Source: Tetrahymena thermophila SB210
Taxonomy: Eukaryota; Ciliophora; Oligohymenophorea; Hymenostomatida; Tetrahymenidae
NCBI RefSeq assembly: GCF_000189635.1
Contig: NW_002476417.1
Coordinates: forward strand, 1-64,000
Length of the DNA stretch: 64,000 bases
Reading direction: 5' to 3'
Each line of letters starts with the position of its first letter. Position 1 is the stretch's first letter. The position numbers and the translations under genes are program-made. Below are positions 1 through 52,343 of the stretch, one piece after another. The notes below the pieces were generated by a model. The model was not told the DNA's origin. It did not search any database and saw only the letters and a program-made list of their open reading frames with translations.

Positions 1-30
1 CCCCAACCCCAAACCCCAACCCCAACCCCT
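1..30. repeat. Macronuclear telomere, C4A2 repeats
   Basis: The window begins with CCCCAA units (C-rich strand), the telomere repeat of Tetrahymena and its relatives. The second unit is CCCCAAA (bases 7-13), one A longer than its neighbours, and the last run of C is followed by T at base 30, where unique sequence starts. Only about four units are present, so the telomere is probably truncated by assembly. The reverse complement is the G-rich 3' strand made by telomerase. This fixes base 1 as a true chromosome end. Confidence 0.97.
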
Positions 31-343: not shown

Positions 344-378
344 CTGTCAGATAAACATGAAAAATTATAAAATGCTTC
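344..378 (+). repeat. 35-base direct copy of 45119-45153
   Basis: Read base by base, this stretch is identical to 45119-45153, which lies in exon 2 of the ankyrin-repeat gene and encodes GLSDKHEKLQNAS. It lies four T residues away from a second fragment of the same exon in inverted orientation. A 35-base identity that keeps codon structure is unlikely by chance even at this AT content. Confidence 0.9.
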
Positions 379-382
379 TTTT

Positions 383-432
383 TACATAGATTTTTTCATT
401 TCAATTATATATTTTTAAACAAATGGTAAAAA
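383..432 (-). repeat. 50-base inverted copy of 45392-45441
   Basis: The reverse complement of this stretch is identical to 45392-45441, from the same ankyrin-gene exon; the source encodes FLPFVQKYIIEMKKSM. The two source segments are 238 bases apart and on one strand at 45 kb. Here they are four bases apart and head to head. The copy is not part of an open gene. Confidence 0.9.
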
Positions 433-515: not shown

Positions 516-2291
516 TCAATTTAATTTAACAGTTTTCGGAGAACTCAGGCGTTTGATAAAAATATGCTTTATAGCTTTAATTATGCATTTTAGAAGTTAA
601 AAATCAAAGATTATGAATTTGAACAAGAATAAAATAGTTTCAAATGATATTGATACCATGAGCAGTATAATTGAAGTAATTATTGTAATTAAGACTAATG
701 TAAAATATCTAAAAATTAGAGTTATAGGGTTTATCATCTTTTTACTAGCTTTACCAGTTTTTTTTACAAATGGTTAAAGGTATTTTTAATTGAAATTGTT
801 CCTATTTTACTTGAAAAGGAAGATAGAGACAAAAAATTGTATAAAATTTATAATATTTAAAATAATTTGATCTATTATTGTCTTTGATATTATAAAGCTA
901 TAGTATTTTTATAATTTTACTATTCTCTGATTCACCAATTATTATTAAGCGCTTTCTATCTCAAATTAATTCTTTGATAGAGTTTCAACAACTTCCTAAA
1001 ATTCTTTATTTTTTAAAAATTAAAAGAATTAATAAGATCTTATTAACTCACTTTCTATCAATCCACAATAAGTTAACACATAATATAATAAATTTATGTA
1101 TTTCTAAGTTCCTAGAGCTTTCTCCAATTACATCTACTCATTATGTAAGGAATCTAGAGAGTAAATTTAAATTAGTAGCATTATTACTGCTTAAACTTTG
1201 TAAATATCTTCTTATTTATTTACTCTAATTTAACTTATCTATTATGGTTTTATAAGCAGTTATTTATTGCTTCTAGTTAAATCATTAATGTTTTCCTTTT
1301 GTAAACAATTGTTCTTAATGTACTTTGTAATAAGTAGCTCTAAATTATTATGCTAAGATAACTCTAAGTTAATGTTTTTATTATCAATTAAATCACTAGA
1401 CTAAACAAAAATGGTCTAATTAATTGAAAATTTTTTTTAATTATCCTTATTTTTATTCTGATCTTTAAGAATTTTAGATGCTTTCTGTAGTCTTTTTATT
1501 ATTTAATCAATTTATAACCTAGCTTTTAAATCAACATTTAAACACTAACTAATTATTTTATTCAAGTATTGATATTCTTCTCTCTTTTCGTTTATCTAAT
1601 ACTACTTGAATTCTTTTATTGCTTTATATTCATCATAAATATTTTTACCATAAAATAACGGCCTATCATACAATAATTCATGTAGCAAGCAACCAAAGCT
1701 CCAAACATCTGCCGATTAATCATATTCTTTCATTAAAATTACTTCAGGAGCTAAGTGATTAATAGACTTTAAACAGGTTTTGTTATTCTAAATATAACAA
1801 AAAAGAAAATCTGTTAAAAACAATTAAAATTAATTTTCATGTTGTTAAATTAAAATGCTTTCTAAATTTAAATTCATATGTTTGATGTTGAGACTATGCA
1901 ATTATTGAAGCCCTTTTAATATTTACATGCTAAAATTAATTATAGTATTCAAATCTAAGTCATCATTTCTCTATTAAATAAGAGTCTTTAAAGTCCCATA
2001 AGGATAATATTTACTGACTATATACTAGCAGTCCTATTCATCAAAAATGTTCTCTATTTAAATTATATTTTCAAAACTATTTTCATGTTTTTACTTATTT
2101 ATTATTGCATTTATTATTTAAAATTCTTGAGATCCTTACTAATTATGTTTCAATTGATTCTATTTTATTTGTTTAATAATAACATGCTCGTCTTTTTAAT
2201 TATCTTAATACTTAGCTAAAAGTATTCTTCCATTAGAGTTTATACTTACTTCTTTCTCTATAGAGTACTTATTGCCTAAAACTTAACTCAT
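516..2291 (-). CDS. Pseudokinase with hydrophobic C-terminal extension
   Basis: One intron-free frame of 591 residues in the ciliate code. Residues about 5-300 align by motif to a protein kinase: a degenerate glycine loop (VSINSNGRILL), a beta-3 lysine in VIIK (K40), a catalytic loop reading IKHMNLNLES where HRD and the loop Asn are expected (about 139-148), DFL in place of DFG (164-166), an intact APE (184-186) and DVWSFGCLLHELL for helix F. With HRD and the DFG glycine lost it is probably inactive and may act as a scaffold. The last 200 residues are unlike kinases and very hydrophobic near residues 500-570, perhaps membrane segments, though AT-rich spacer read as codons can look like this. 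The start is the first in-frame ATG before the kinase fold. Its 3' end faces the telomere. Confidence 0.75.
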
Positions 2292-3153
2292 TCCACCTTC
2301 AAAAATAAATTGAGTTGTTTATATTTTTTTATAAAAATTTTAATAGTTTTTATTTAATTTTGATAATTTCCAAATCTTCGAATAATAAATAATTAGATTA
2401 TTGATATAAAGGAAAATATTCAGCAAAAATTAAAAAATTCAATCATTTTAAACCAATATTTTTTAAGAAAAAATATTGATAATAGATAATAATAATTGGA
2501 TTATCAATAGCAAATTTCTCTATTTATTTTTTATGATAGGTAATCGATATTTTATTAAATATTTGAATTTTTTTAAATAACATATCAAAATTATTTAAAA
2601 AATATTTTAACTAAGTTTAATAATCTTACTTAATACATAAACATTATTTATAAAATTTTTTATCCAAAATTATTTTTAAAAAGACAAATATTATTTTAAT
2701 TTCTTTCATAATAACCTTTATAAAAAATGCTTTTTAATAAAATGAATAGGATAGGATCTGGAAATATATTTATCTAATTAAAAAATAAACAATTTTGATG
2801 ATTTTCGTATTTTTATTGATTGGTTTGTAAAAATTAATTAACAAACTAAAATTTATATGATTCTTAAATGCTTTGCTAGAATTTACCAAAGTTAATTTTT
2901 AAAAGATATTATTATTAATAATTTCAAAATTAATTATCCAAAGATATTTTAGAAATAGAATTTGTGATCATAAATATACAAATCTACATAGTTAAATAAG
3001 TGATTTATAAAATTGAAAAAAATAAACATGATATAGGTATTAAGCAAGAATTAAGCCACATATGCTCTTTTAAAATATAGAAGCATTAAACCATTCAACG
3101 CAGTTTATAGCAACCAAATTTTTGCATTTTCATCTAATAGCGATTACAACAAA
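2292..3153. other. AT-rich intergenic spacer
   Basis: This divergent spacer lies between the pseudokinase (minus) and the 300-residue gene (plus), so both promoters should lie here. It holds homopolymer runs and many TGA codons in all frames. I see no gene, RNA or repeat. Confidence 0.6.
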
Positions 3154-10783: not shown

Positions 10784-10856
10784 TTCCCCCACCGGGACTT
10801 GAACCCGGGTCTGAAGGGTGAAAACCTTCTATCCTAACCTGCTAGACTATAGGGGA
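10784..10856 (-). tRNA. tRNA-Glu (anticodon UUC)
   Basis: A full cloverleaf can be drawn by eye. The acceptor stem pairs TCCCCTA with TGGGGGA, with A as discriminator. The D arm is present. The anticodon stem pairs GAAGG with CCTTC around loop TTTTCAC (anticodon TTC), and the T arm pairs CCGGG with CCCGG around TTCAAGT. There is no intron and no encoded CCA. The internal A and B boxes are intact. It decodes GAA/GAG; it is not one of the suppressor-like Gln tRNAs that read UAA/UAG. Confidence 0.97.
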
Positions 10857-44811: not shown

Positions 44812-47800
44812 ATGTTTTTTGATAAATTATCAATATATTTTGATTAAATTCTATTATCCGTTAAGAAATTAATAATTATTTTTTTTATTATCTATTTTTA
44901 ATTTAATTATTGTTTTATAATAAAAGTATGAGAATTTAGTTTTAGTTTTAGAGAAATTAAAGGAAAAACAAGAATTAAAAAAGTAAGGTAAGGATACACA
45001 AGCATCTAATGTGAAATATGTGTTGAAAAATATAACACCTACAAGCACAAAAGATATTTTTTAGAACATGAGCAAATATGGAAATCCAAGGACTTAGTAG
45101 TTTTTATCAAGACTTGGGCTGTCAGATAAACATGAAAAATTATAAAATGCTTCATAGCTGATGAAAAAACAAAAATAGTCCCTAGATGAAATTAGAATGG
45201 ATGATGCTTAGTTAGATGATGAGTAGGAATAGATTTCCACAGATTCAAAAAATATAAATTCAGAAGAACCTTTGAGTAAAGTTTAAAACTTTTGGGATTA
45301 GAATAAAGAAAAAGCATTTAAATAATGCAGATAAGAAAAGAAGTAGCTCTATTCTAACGAAGTTGCTAGCTCATCATGGAACGAAGTTGGGTTTTTACCA
45401 TTTGTTTAAAAATATATAATTGAAATGAAAAAATCTATGTAGAGAGGTAAATACAACATTTTTAAAATAATATTACAATTTAGTTTTAAAACATAGATCA
45501 TTTACTTGATAGATACGCTGATGGTGAGTGGTTAACTGCTGAAGAACTTAAACTGTTAGCCAACACTAGTGAGCTACTAAACTCTTGCATAGATAGAAAG
45601 TTTATGTAAAGTGCAGTAGATGTGATTGATAAGGATATAATATAAAATGTAAATATTAAAAATCTTCAAATAAAAATCATAATCTTTTCATTTTAAAATT
45701 TAGCTCGAACTAGGGTTAGCTGAAGACATTTTAAAAAACTACGAGGAAATATAAATAGCAATAAAGAAAAGCAGACAGGAATTCATTAAAAATTCTCTTT
45801 AGAAATCATATGAAAAACTTCGTCAGTATGATTAGAAAAAATAAAAATAATGGGAATAGTATTAAAACAAAGAATATCATGCTAAAAAGCAGAAGATGTT
45901 TACAGCAGTTTGTTATAAGTTAGAGAGAGAAGGGAAATTCAAAGAAAAACCTCCTGAAAACTTATAAGGAGCAGAGTCTTTAAAGCTCTTCTTAGAAGGA
46001 AAAATAGATCAAGATGAAGTTATCAAAGATCTCAAAAACATAAATTATTATGCAGAAGAGCTTGAGAGTGAAATTAATAATAAAAAAAAAGAAAGAGAGT
46101 AGAAAAAACAACAAGAGGAATAATGGAAAAAGTATTTAACTTCTATATCAGAGCCCAAGCAGTAGCTAAATGACAAATTCTATAAAAGTGTAACAAGGCA
46201 CTATTATCATCCTCCTTCAAAGATCTTTATCTAAGATGAACACAATGCACAAGATTATACTCCTGAAGAGATGGAAAAATACTCAGAGCTAAGTAATTTA
46301 TTTAGAAATAGTCATTTATTTTTATATATATTAGTAAAATTAACTTGAAGAAGCTTTTACCTTTTCTTCAAATTTTGTTTATTTTCAAATAATTCTTTTT
46401 GCTTAGAATTAATTGAATAAACATCTAAATATTTTTATTTAGTTGATTTGTTAGCTAATTAACTAGTTTTGTTATTAACACTAAAATAAATTTATCAAAA
46501 TATATTTTTTCAATTTTATATTTAGATAATGCTATGAAGGTTTTGAATAAAAACGAGTAAGAAAAATATAAAATTAATCTAAAAGCTCACATTGCTTTCA
46601 AGAACCCATACACTTTTAAAAATTTCTACTCAGGAGGACCAGCTAAACCTATTAGAGAAGAACCTCTCTATGTAAAAATATAATTTCAAAAATCTCATAA
46701 ATAATTCTTAATTAAAAAATGTAATTAGAAACCTTTAGATAATTAAGAAACTAAAGTAAATCCTCGAGAGCTAAGGTATATAATTATGATCTAAAAAAAA
46801 TTTAGGTAGCATAGATAGTAGAAAAAAATGAAGGAAGTACTTGAAACAAAAGAAAAAGATAAATATTATGAATATAAGTTTAAGATTGAATAAATTAGAC
46901 ATCTTACAAAATAAAACATTAAAATTTAGCAAACATCTGATAAGGCTAAAGATATCTAAATTATTAATTTAGATGAAGAACCTTAAGTCAACACCCCAAT
47001 GACATAATAGCACAAGGATTACAATAATGAAAATTTAAGTGGTAATATGTTCAAAGAAAGAAAATAGACTCGTTCAGGTACTTTGAATTAAGGCTAAAAA
47101 CTGAAAAGACCACTTACAGGAATTTCTACAAATGATCAAGAGCTTATAGAATAAGGTAAAAAAATAGACACGATGGCAAATAAAAGTACTGATTTTTTTT
47201 AAAATAATAATAATAATAACAACAACAATAAATCAACATTTGCCAATACTACAAGACCTAGAACAGCTTTAAGCCAAGGAGGCAAATTATTTTAATCTAC
47301 TAAATCTCTTTCTCAGTCAAAAGTTCCTTAAAGCTTTACTCATTCTACTCATTATACTTCCATATTTAATATTGATGAAAACTACAGCACTTCAGAGTTT
47401 AAAAGAAATGTTGACTAACTTGCTACGAAGCCTATCGAGCAGCAGCTTAGAAATGTAAAATTAATTGAAGCTGCTAAAAATAATAGATTTTGGGCTGTGA
47501 ATACTGGTAAATTTATCTTTTGCAGAAGAGACTTTTATTTGGCAAGAGATAAAATAGGATAGACTGCTCTACACTGGGCGGTTTATCATCGTAATACAGA
47601 ATTCATATAATGGCTTATCGATTAAGGATCAGATCCAAATGCCCCTGATTGTAATGGAAATACACCAGTTCATGTTGCTTTCTAATCAGATAAAATGGAG
47701 GTATTAACTATTAAATAAAATATAATAATAGTTTATATATTTATTTATTTATTTATTTATTTATTTATTTGTAAATAAGGTTATTATGATGATAATTAAC

Positions 47801-48834: not shown

Positions 48835-49149
48835 ATGTTCAACTTAGAGTAAATAACAATAGAATAAAAAAGAAAGCATAAATAATATATGGATAATATT
48901 GAAGTAATTCTTAATTTACTATTTTTAAATAAAAATACAACTCTTAACAAATAAATGCTTAATAGTAATTTATTGCTTAAATTTAAAAGAGAAGTGGTTG
49001 AAAATAAAAATCGACTAGCGTTTGTTGGTTTCTTAGTGAAAATTTCATTCATGAATTTTATTTTTAATATTTAAAAAAAGAATGTTGTGAATTATTTCTG
49101 TATGGTTTTAAATGAGTAGAATGTATACATACATCAATTATTTTCATGA
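48835..49149 (+). CDS. Weakly supported small protein
   Basis: A 104-residue frame in the ciliate code, MFNLEQITIEQKRKHKQYMD to TGA, mixed charged and hydrophobic (RLAFVGFLVKISFMNFIFNI). The opposite strand also has a 79-codon frame, but its composition looks like the antisense shadow of this one. With TGA as the only stop, frames of this length arise by chance in AT-rich DNA, so this is a low-confidence call. Confidence 0.3.
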
Positions 49150-49265
49150 TTTTGCATATGTTATTTTTTTAATCTTAAAAACAAAATTTTTTAACTAAAC
49201 ATTAAATTATATTATTAAGAAAATAAATTTTTATAAAACAAGATAAGTAGAGATTTTTTTTTGCT

Positions 49266-52200
49266 ATGTAGAGATAACCAAACATTTAGTTCTTTAAAAG
49301 TATTAAAGCAGCCATTTTAGTAGCTTTAATTGCTCTAACTGCCAATATAAAATAATGTTTGAGCTAGGAGACAGATACATTAGGAAATAATGACTATTAA
49401 TTGATAAGAATTAACAATTTATATGAAATTTAACAAAATTAAACAGCTTTGACCATTAAATTAAATTTAACATTAGACAATTTTTTTATCTAAAACTACA
49501 TTGTTATCGATGTAATCTTAGTTTCAGAATTAGAACAACCATCTAAATTTGTAGCCTGTTTAAATTTCGCTGAGGATCCTCTATTAAAAGATTAATATAT
49601 AAATGGAGGATATTATACATGCGATCAGACTGATATTTTTTCAACAGAAAAGTAGAAATAACAGCATCTTTTGGTTATAAGCATCGAAGATCCATTGTAT
49701 TAAACAAATAGGTTTCCATTTCTGACTTTTTTTTATTAATAAAATACCCCTCAAAGAAATAACACCATAATTTCGTAGAATAAATTAGTTAGGTATGATG
49801 TTTTTGCATATAATTTTAATCAATTTCCTTGCCATAATAATTGCAATGGTAAGAATGGGTACTGTAATGGAAAGGACGGAACTTGCACTTGTAAGGAAAA
49901 CTATATGGATGAAGATTGCGGAATCTTTTTATAACCTCTTACTTTATTTGATAACAATGATTCTAATAATCTAATGATTTAATCATATAAGGCTTACTTC
50001 TATAAGATTTAAATGAATAACTTATTAAAAAAAGCACAGAATAACCATATCTATTTTCATTTTAAAAAATATAATTTGAGATCTGTACTGGATATTTAAA
50101 TTTTTAATAACACTAAAGAATTACCATCTAATGAAGACAAATATGCTAAATTTAAAATGCAAATAGATGAATTTTCTATTAAAAATGTTGAATATTTTTG
50201 TTAAAATTTACCACTTAACCAAAATTTGACATCACTAGAATAAAATAACTAAACGATGGTTTAAGACGATTAAAATATGACTTAAGAATGTTTTATCATT
50301 TTAAAGGTAAGGCAAATCAGGAAACTTGAGTCCACTATTCTTTAAGTTTCTGTATAAATTTAATAAGATTAAATTACAGATTAAAAAAATGAATAAAATA
50401 AAGAAAAGCAGGTTGAAAAAGAAAGTGCGAGTATGTAAGTTAATAGCAATTTTATTATAGGAATTTTTATAGCAATAATAGTTTCTACAGTTCTTCTTAT
50501 TTTAGGTATAATAAAAATTATTTTAAAAGCATATTCTAATAAGAATATTAAAGATTAGAATAAAAATATCCCAAAAATTATTGTTTAAACATAAGTGCCA
50601 CCAAAGAAAAAATCTGTATCTTAAATAATAAAAGAAGTTAATAACAAAATACAAATAGAATAAAAAAAGAAGACTATTTTTTACAAAAAGAGACTTCTAC
50701 AATACTTCTTAATGCCAGTTTAGCAATATGAAAATACTTCTTCTGATAAAGAATTAAAAAATAATTACAATAAAGATTAAAAGGAAAAAGAAAAAAGCAA
50801 TAATTTTGATATTAGCATAGAATTATATATCTAAAAATAATATGAAAACATTGAAAATCTTGATGAAAGCATCGGAAATTCTTGTAAAAATTAAGATAAA
50901 TAGTAAATGATTGATAAAAATAGGCATGAAAAAAAGAAATGCTAATAAAATGAAAAAGAGGATGTAAAGGATTGCTAAAATAATTAGACATCTATCGATT
51001 AAAAATTATAAGATTAGAATATACCTACTACTTTGTAGGTTAATAATAGTAAAAACAAGCAATGTTGTTCTCTTTGCTTAGTGGAATTCGTAAAAGGATA
51101 AAAATTGAGAATAACTATTTGCAGCCATTACTTTCATTCTTAATGCTTAGAAGAATGGCTAGAAAGCAATGAAAATTGTCCTCTCTGCAGATAAAGCTTT
51201 GAGATAATGGATATGATTGATTATATTTCTGTTCAGTTATACTCTAAGGTTAACAATTAATAATCTAAGTAAGCAATTGGTGCATCAAGAAATTATGTAA
51301 ATTCAAGATTACAGTAAGAGTAAGAAAAAATTTCTTAGCTGAGTAACCGAGAGTTCTTGACTATTTTTAAAGAATATATTCCTGATTTTTCTAGTTAAAT
51401 AGAGTATGCAGACTAATATTAACTTCCAAATTTGAATAAAAAATCATGGAATAAAAATAAATTTTAAAAGTATTTGAATAAAAAGACAAACCAAGAAATA
51501 ATAGATTTGCAAGTATAAAATAGTAATTAGAATGAAGAGAAACAGCAAACTGATGATAATGATAATTTCTAGGAAAATTAAGAAAAAATAACTGAAAATG
51601 AAAATAGACCCAGCAATTATTCTCCTGCGAATGTAATATTTTCTAAGCAAAGAGCCTCACTAAATTAAGATAAATTAGGTTAATACTCTGCAAGTTTAGC
51701 AAAAAGCTGCTTAAAAATTGAATCTAAACAAAAGAAGCTATCAAATAGTTAAGGACTCATTCCTTCATCTTCAAATTTATCTGATGTGAATAAAATAAAA
51801 GAAAAACTGAGCAGTTTTAATTTCTAGTAATAAAAATTTATGTATAAGACTAATGTTACTTAAGAATTACTAAAAGAAAATCAAGATAATATTCATACTA
51901 GAATGACAAGTATAGGATTAGAAAGTCAGCCTAATTATTTAATTAAGTAGAGCACCTATTTACTTTAAAACGATGGATCTAGTCAAATAGCAAGTCCTAT
52001 GAGTTAAAACACTATGAATTTTCGTGCTTTCATGAGCAAATAGCCATCTTTTTATGATATAAAAGCTGATACATCTTCGCCAGAATTCTCTGAAGAAGAT
52101 TCAGCTAACAACTTTTAAAATTTCCTAAAAAATCCACAATAAAGTTTTGGAGAGAAATTAATGGATGAAATCGAAGAATCTCCAAACATTATTTAAAAAC

Positions 52201-52343
52201 CTTCAAGTTTGAAAAACATAAATTATTAATTAAGATAAAATTCACCTAAAAACACAACTTCATTAAGGAAAATTGAAATAAATTAAAATAAAATATAGCT
52301 CAATTTTTATAAGAAGCCAAAAGGTTATCAAAACATTGCATGA
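49266..52343 (+). CDS. EGF-like, membrane-anchored RING-H2 E3 ligase
   Basis: 1,025 residues without introns, a likely ubiquitin ligase that recruits E2 enzymes on the cytosolic side of a membrane. In order: a hydrophobic leader (SIKAAILVALIALTANI, about 12-30); a lumenal/extracellular region of about 350 residues with an EGF-like knot (CHNNCNGKNGYCN, then CTCKENYMDEDC, about 188-218); a transmembrane helix (FIIGIFIAIIVSTVLLILGI, about 397-420); then cytosol. The RING-H2 finger at about 600-645 reads CSLC, then ICSHYFHSQCLEEWLE, then CPLC, with all eight zinc ligands present. A Ser/Gln/Asn-rich tail of about 380 residues follows. The layout (signal, extracellular part, one TM, RING-H2) parallels single-pass RING ligases such as the PA-TM-RING type, with an EGF-like module in place of the PA domain. 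Confidence 0.9.

Follow-up and report, generated by a model that had tools for sequence, protein, structure and literature searches.

The left end of contig C130 of Tetrahymena thermophila carried an insert of 89 bases in total, composed of two short exact copies of sequence from one exon placed in opposite orientations. The insert is most probably a two-fragment, inverted, templated (copy-and-paste) insertion made during the repair of a double-strand break in the subtelomeric spacer. The window (the whole stretch of DNA that was analysed, 64,000 nucleotides) represented the left end of C130 in an assembly of 101.0 Mb and 445 contigs. C130 was 819,503 bp long with a telomere junction at its other end too, and it looks like a complete, telomere-to-telomere macronuclear chromosome. 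The G+C content was 22.6%, and the genes read open when TAA and TAG were taken as glutamine. This genetic code and the telomere type are in line with Tetrahymena. The base composition agrees with that genus as well (PMC6564038). The relevant features were as follows:

1..29, + strand: C4A2 telomere repeats with one CCCCAAA variant, left end of C130
30..343, no strand: subtelomeric DNA, very AT-rich (11% G+C), with genome matches inside it solely at 70-77% identity
344..378, + strand: piece 1, 35 nt, direct exact copy of donor 1 (45119-45153)
379..382, + strand: TTTT between the pieces, continuing neither source; untemplated or imperfectly templated
383..432, - strand: piece 2, 50 nt, exact reverse complement of donor 2 (45392-45441)
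516..2438, - strand: outermost gene, a protein-kinase open frame (code 6; Pfam Pkinase, 1.5e-32)
45119..45153, + strand: donor 1, within the open frame of the donor exon, LSDKHEKLQNA
45392..45441, + strand: donor 2, sharing exon and frame with donor 1, FLPFVQKYIIEMKKSM; 5 bases before the putative exon end at 45446
46447..47700, + strand: downstream open frame with ankyrin repeats (Ank_4, 2.2e-12), probably part of the donor gene

Copied pieces, borders and donor exon

The alignments confirmed both copies described in the earlier note, with identity at 35/35 positions for piece 1 in direct orientation and at 50/50 positions for piece 2 as a reverse complement. The spacing given there was also correct, namely 238 nt between the donors at the source and 4 nt between the pieces at the copy. 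The arrangement had been called head to head and was corrected; relative to the sense strand of the gene, pieces 1 and 2 converged with their 3' ends facing each other and were therefore tail to tail. The similarity between the two pieces was limited to one inverted match of 13 nt at 85%.

In the 64-kb window, a search for exact repeats of 24 nt or more yielded pieces 1 and 2 and a TTTA microsatellite. At a threshold of 18 nt with at least 4 G/C, the pieces accounted for two of the three window matches, and the third was an 18-nt palindrome. When the first 1.3 kb was compared with the rest of the window, the longest match was 50 nt, whereas order-3 Markov trials (n = 60) gave 15-20 nt; with both pieces masked, the observed value was 17 nt. 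A chance origin of the two matches is excluded.

Outward from the four borders, 11, 10, 15, and 17 of 40 bases matched the donor (random mean 13.3, sd 3.1, 95% point 18). A longer, decayed duplication was rejected, since the similarity dropped to background at all four borders; a continuation of piece 1 as far as 329, at 88%, was a gapped AT-rich tail. No direct repeat flanking the insert was found that could represent a target-site duplication, and the microhomology with the flanks amounted by eye to at most 1 base, assuming an empty site at 343/433. The lack of a flanking direct repeat and a sharing of at most one base are as expected for end joining. At the internal junction, no clean microhomology was visible, and the extra bases TTTT separated the pieces there. 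A CATAG match lay near both donor breakpoints; matches of at least 5 nt occurred in 1544 of 3000 random pairs at equal spacing, so this match was not significant.

The donor stretches were still in place and in one open frame; therefore, the insert is a copy and was not cut from the gene. According to the earlier note, both sources lay in one exon of an ankyrin gene. One coding exon and one frame were borne out, and the assignment to ankyrin repeats came through the downstream frame, which probably forms one gene with the donor exon. The donor exon itself matched no family in Pfam. Removal of a 50-nt intron (45447-45496) kept the frame open, which was true for one of the four acceptors tried (45496). 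Because the intron-free reading was open as well, to 45625, the exon end at 45446 is regarded as putative. Further downstream, a long open frame at 49116-52343 (1075 aa, code 6) contained a RING-type zinc finger (zf-RING_2, 3.1e-11), and its predicted product is perhaps a membrane ubiquitin ligase.

Copy number in the genome and at other chromosome ends

Genome searches were performed with the copy and with the donor. Among the matches listed, no third copy of the pieces was observed, and the sole exact matches of the copy and the donor were each other. Because scoring was limited to the best candidates and very common words were passed over, this result is strong but not absolute. The earlier note had recognised that the pieces might belong to a dispersed repeat instead of to this gene; the search listed only the copy and the donor as exact. 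The other matches to positions 30-1500 were AT-rich alignments at 70-84%, and a dispersed repeat was rejected; the remaining matches listed for the donor side likewise had 70-84% identity. An 8-kb interior query (36/36 candidates scored) recovered both pieces, together with a 45-nt match at 91% elsewhere in the query and two 30-nt exact matches to an AAT/AAC microsatellite at 47203-47232 of the window. For a 7-kb interior control (34/34 candidates scored), the best non-self identity was 90%.

Forty chromosome ends were fetched, and the genome-wide searches covered 10 + 8 of them. A comparable patch was present at 0/10 of the first group (320 nt each; best 40 of 59 candidates). All of these ends, one of which was the right end of C130, found themselves, and the non-self identity was at most 86% among the matches listed. 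The search with the 8 further ends was dominated by a dispersed repeat (best 40 of 172 candidates), which makes it a weak test, and the listed non-self matches above 73% lay within that repeat. The 40 ends were also compared among themselves and against the window; of the exact matches of at least 18 nt, the 40 longest rows comprised telomere, simple repeats, and AT-rich words no longer than 21 nt. As a separate observation, a 63-nt core of the dispersed repeat was located at the right end of C39, about 355-417 nt from the telomere junction. This core was matched at 92-97% by 13 of the 32 main non-self places listed (best 40 of 172 candidates), including C130:149322-149384, and it had no match in Rfam.

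The insert was positioned 314 bases inside the telomere, and that stretch had no close copy elsewhere. No known RNA family was detected in the first 3 kb up to an E value of 1. A tRNA gene at 10784-10856 on the minus strand (62.7 bits) was the sole Rfam match in the window at gathering thresholds.

Origin of the insert

The preferred explanation would involve the following steps. A double-strand break would have occurred in the subtelomeric spacer, and a short single strand would have been produced or extended from one exon of the ankyrin gene. A template switch may then have allowed a second stretch to be copied from the opposite strand, and end joining would have inserted the resulting strand at the break, leaving TTTT at the internal junction. 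In a variant of the same account, two short fragments of one locus would have been joined separately. In either form, the insertion probably entered a former empty site in which 343 was joined to 433. The origin of both pieces from one exon, the retained donor, the inverted order, and the sharp borders argue for this account, and the internal junction without clean microhomology and the distance of 238 nt between the donor pieces argue against it. Of the readings in the earlier note, templated filler DNA from end-joining repair was the best, and the portions of the yeast study considered here describe a class that matches it closely (PMC11724301). The same note had attributed the identity of the copies to a recent event or to selection; judged from the sequence, the exact identity fits a recent copy, and selection would be unnecessary.

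An assembly or library artefact, in which a chimeric or fold-back molecule near the contig end entered the consensus, appears improbable. The contig end is 344 bases from the start of the insert, and libraries are known to generate inverted chimeras. Coverage of the left end may be poor, given that the left telomere was assembled to only 29 bases, compared with about 400 bases past the right telomere junction of C130. However, the contig runs on past the insert into sequence without a close copy elsewhere and then into the telomere, and several false joins would therefore be needed. Short assembled telomeres were also ordinary; the telomere-junction match started at base 1 to 749 among the 51 left ends listed, which suggests that assembly ends were trimmed, and it fell within the first 50 bases in 17 of them.

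The position of the insert at a macronuclear chromosome end agrees with the suggestion that it is a direct scar left in the developing macronucleus when programmed breakage of the chromosome was followed by the addition of a new telomere. This origin is nevertheless very unlikely, and the corresponding proposal of the earlier note was unsupported as stated: the telomere stops at base 29, 314 bases without a close copy intervene, and none of the 10 other ends carried such a patch (best 40 of 59 candidates). The breakage-site motif, with up to 3 mismatches allowed, had 5 matches in the window against 4.96 expected. The insert lies at most in a breakage-prone neighbourhood.

It is hardly plausible that the insert is a selected regulatory element whose copies would target the ankyrin gene through small or antisense RNAs, derived for example from the kinase transcript's 3' untranslated region; a source of small RNAs had been suggested in the earlier note. 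Both copies are exactly identical to the donor, and the kinase gene, whose stop codon lies 83 bases from the insert, is transcribed towards the telomere and hence towards the insert. A kinase transcript read past the stop would, as a matter of anatomy only, contain 50 nt in sense and 35 nt in antisense orientation relative to the ankyrin mRNA. However, the identity is accounted for by recent copying. The two pieces derive from separate donor stretches and do not duplicate one another, and hence by construction they form no long hairpin.

The chance that the insert is a remnant of a Helitron- or Pack-TIR-like mobile element that captured gene fragments is next to negligible: such elements can hold several short gene pieces in mixed orientation, and imperfect AT-rich inverted repeats were found nearby (25 pairs in 1-700, one of which, 21 nt at 76%, pairs 323-343, adjoining the left insert border, with 510-530), but none of these 25 pairs framed the insert at both borders, a target duplication was absent, and the flanks had no close copy elsewhere.

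Comparison with known systems

The templated insertion proposed here was compared with insertions and rearrangements described in people, Tetrahymena, and yeast. A target-site duplication and an added poly(A), which characterize Class 1 (LINE-type) templated insertions, were both absent from the insert; the run of AAAAA at 428-432 belongs to the donor sequence. The present case, with its two inverted fragments, differs from the Class 2 templated sequence insertion polymorphisms described in people, as presented in the sections of PMC5110952 considered here. Human template switching at sub-telomeric breaks, in the part of PMC13065848 drawn on here, is alike in that complex rearrangement near chromosome ends is attributed to template switching. 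By that description, the human events are ultra-complex and can amplify loci, whereas the Tetrahymena insert has just 89 bases.

Germline regions of T. thermophila at Cbs sites have been reported as rearrangement-prone, and 49 of 225 Cbs segments have a duplicate; in the part of the report used here, the authors suggest that some factor raises rearrangement near Cbs sites (PMC5182062). These events resemble the present insert in being close to a future macronuclear chromosome end. According to the same part of that report, they duplicate the breakage-site region itself, whereas here short pieces of a coding exon were placed inside the end (PMC5182062). The Cbs-linked proneness to rearrangement may explain the place of the insert near a chromosome end, which one case cannot show. 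Among the papers found that mention both templated inserts and Tetrahymena, no title concerned Tetrahymena genomes. More broadly, the macronuclear ends of Tetrahymena might record germline breaks near breakage sites that were repaired by template-switching insertion, with the patches as natural scars; we consider this generalization speculative and rather unlikely. Stray breakage machinery is one possible source of such germline breaks.

The closest likeness was to the distant inverted templated insertions of yeast (Yu et al. 2024, PMC11724301), and the following statements apply to the portions of that study considered here. In certain repair mutants, 5-7% of insertions are complex, and in rad27-delta and RPA mutants the common pattern consists of two inverted fragments of one locus. 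These inverted pairs are explained by a template switch followed by end-joining capture. The form is not universal, as in Dna2-deficient yeast it accounts for only 9 of the 144 complex insertions, and the insertion data come mainly from repair mutants. Nearly all rad27-delta insertions are shorter than 100 bp, and about 40% are shorter than 50 bp. At the junction between the inverted fragments, microhomology of 2-11 bp is reported, with junction distances of about 2-20 or 30-119 bp, and the rad27-delta fragments overlap.

The Tetrahymena insert is alike in its two short inverted fragments from one distant locus, in the sizes of the pieces, in copy-and-paste with a retained donor, and in near-blunt outer junctions, where the microhomology with the break ends lay within the 0-4 bp range of the yeast class (PMC11724301). 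It differs in having a TTTT junction, in having non-overlapping donors 238 nt apart, and in being found in a natural assembly as opposed to an induced break. Because the 2-11 bp of microhomology between the inverted fragments was lacking here, we regard the insert as one that works like a yeast distant inverted templated insertion, short of a full member of that class. It appears to represent, as a natural example from a ciliate, a type of insertion that was elucidated in repair mutants of yeast. As a lone case it changes little; if confirmed by reads, it would supply a searchable signature and would show that two-fragment inverted capture occurs in an organism with scheduled breakage of its genome.
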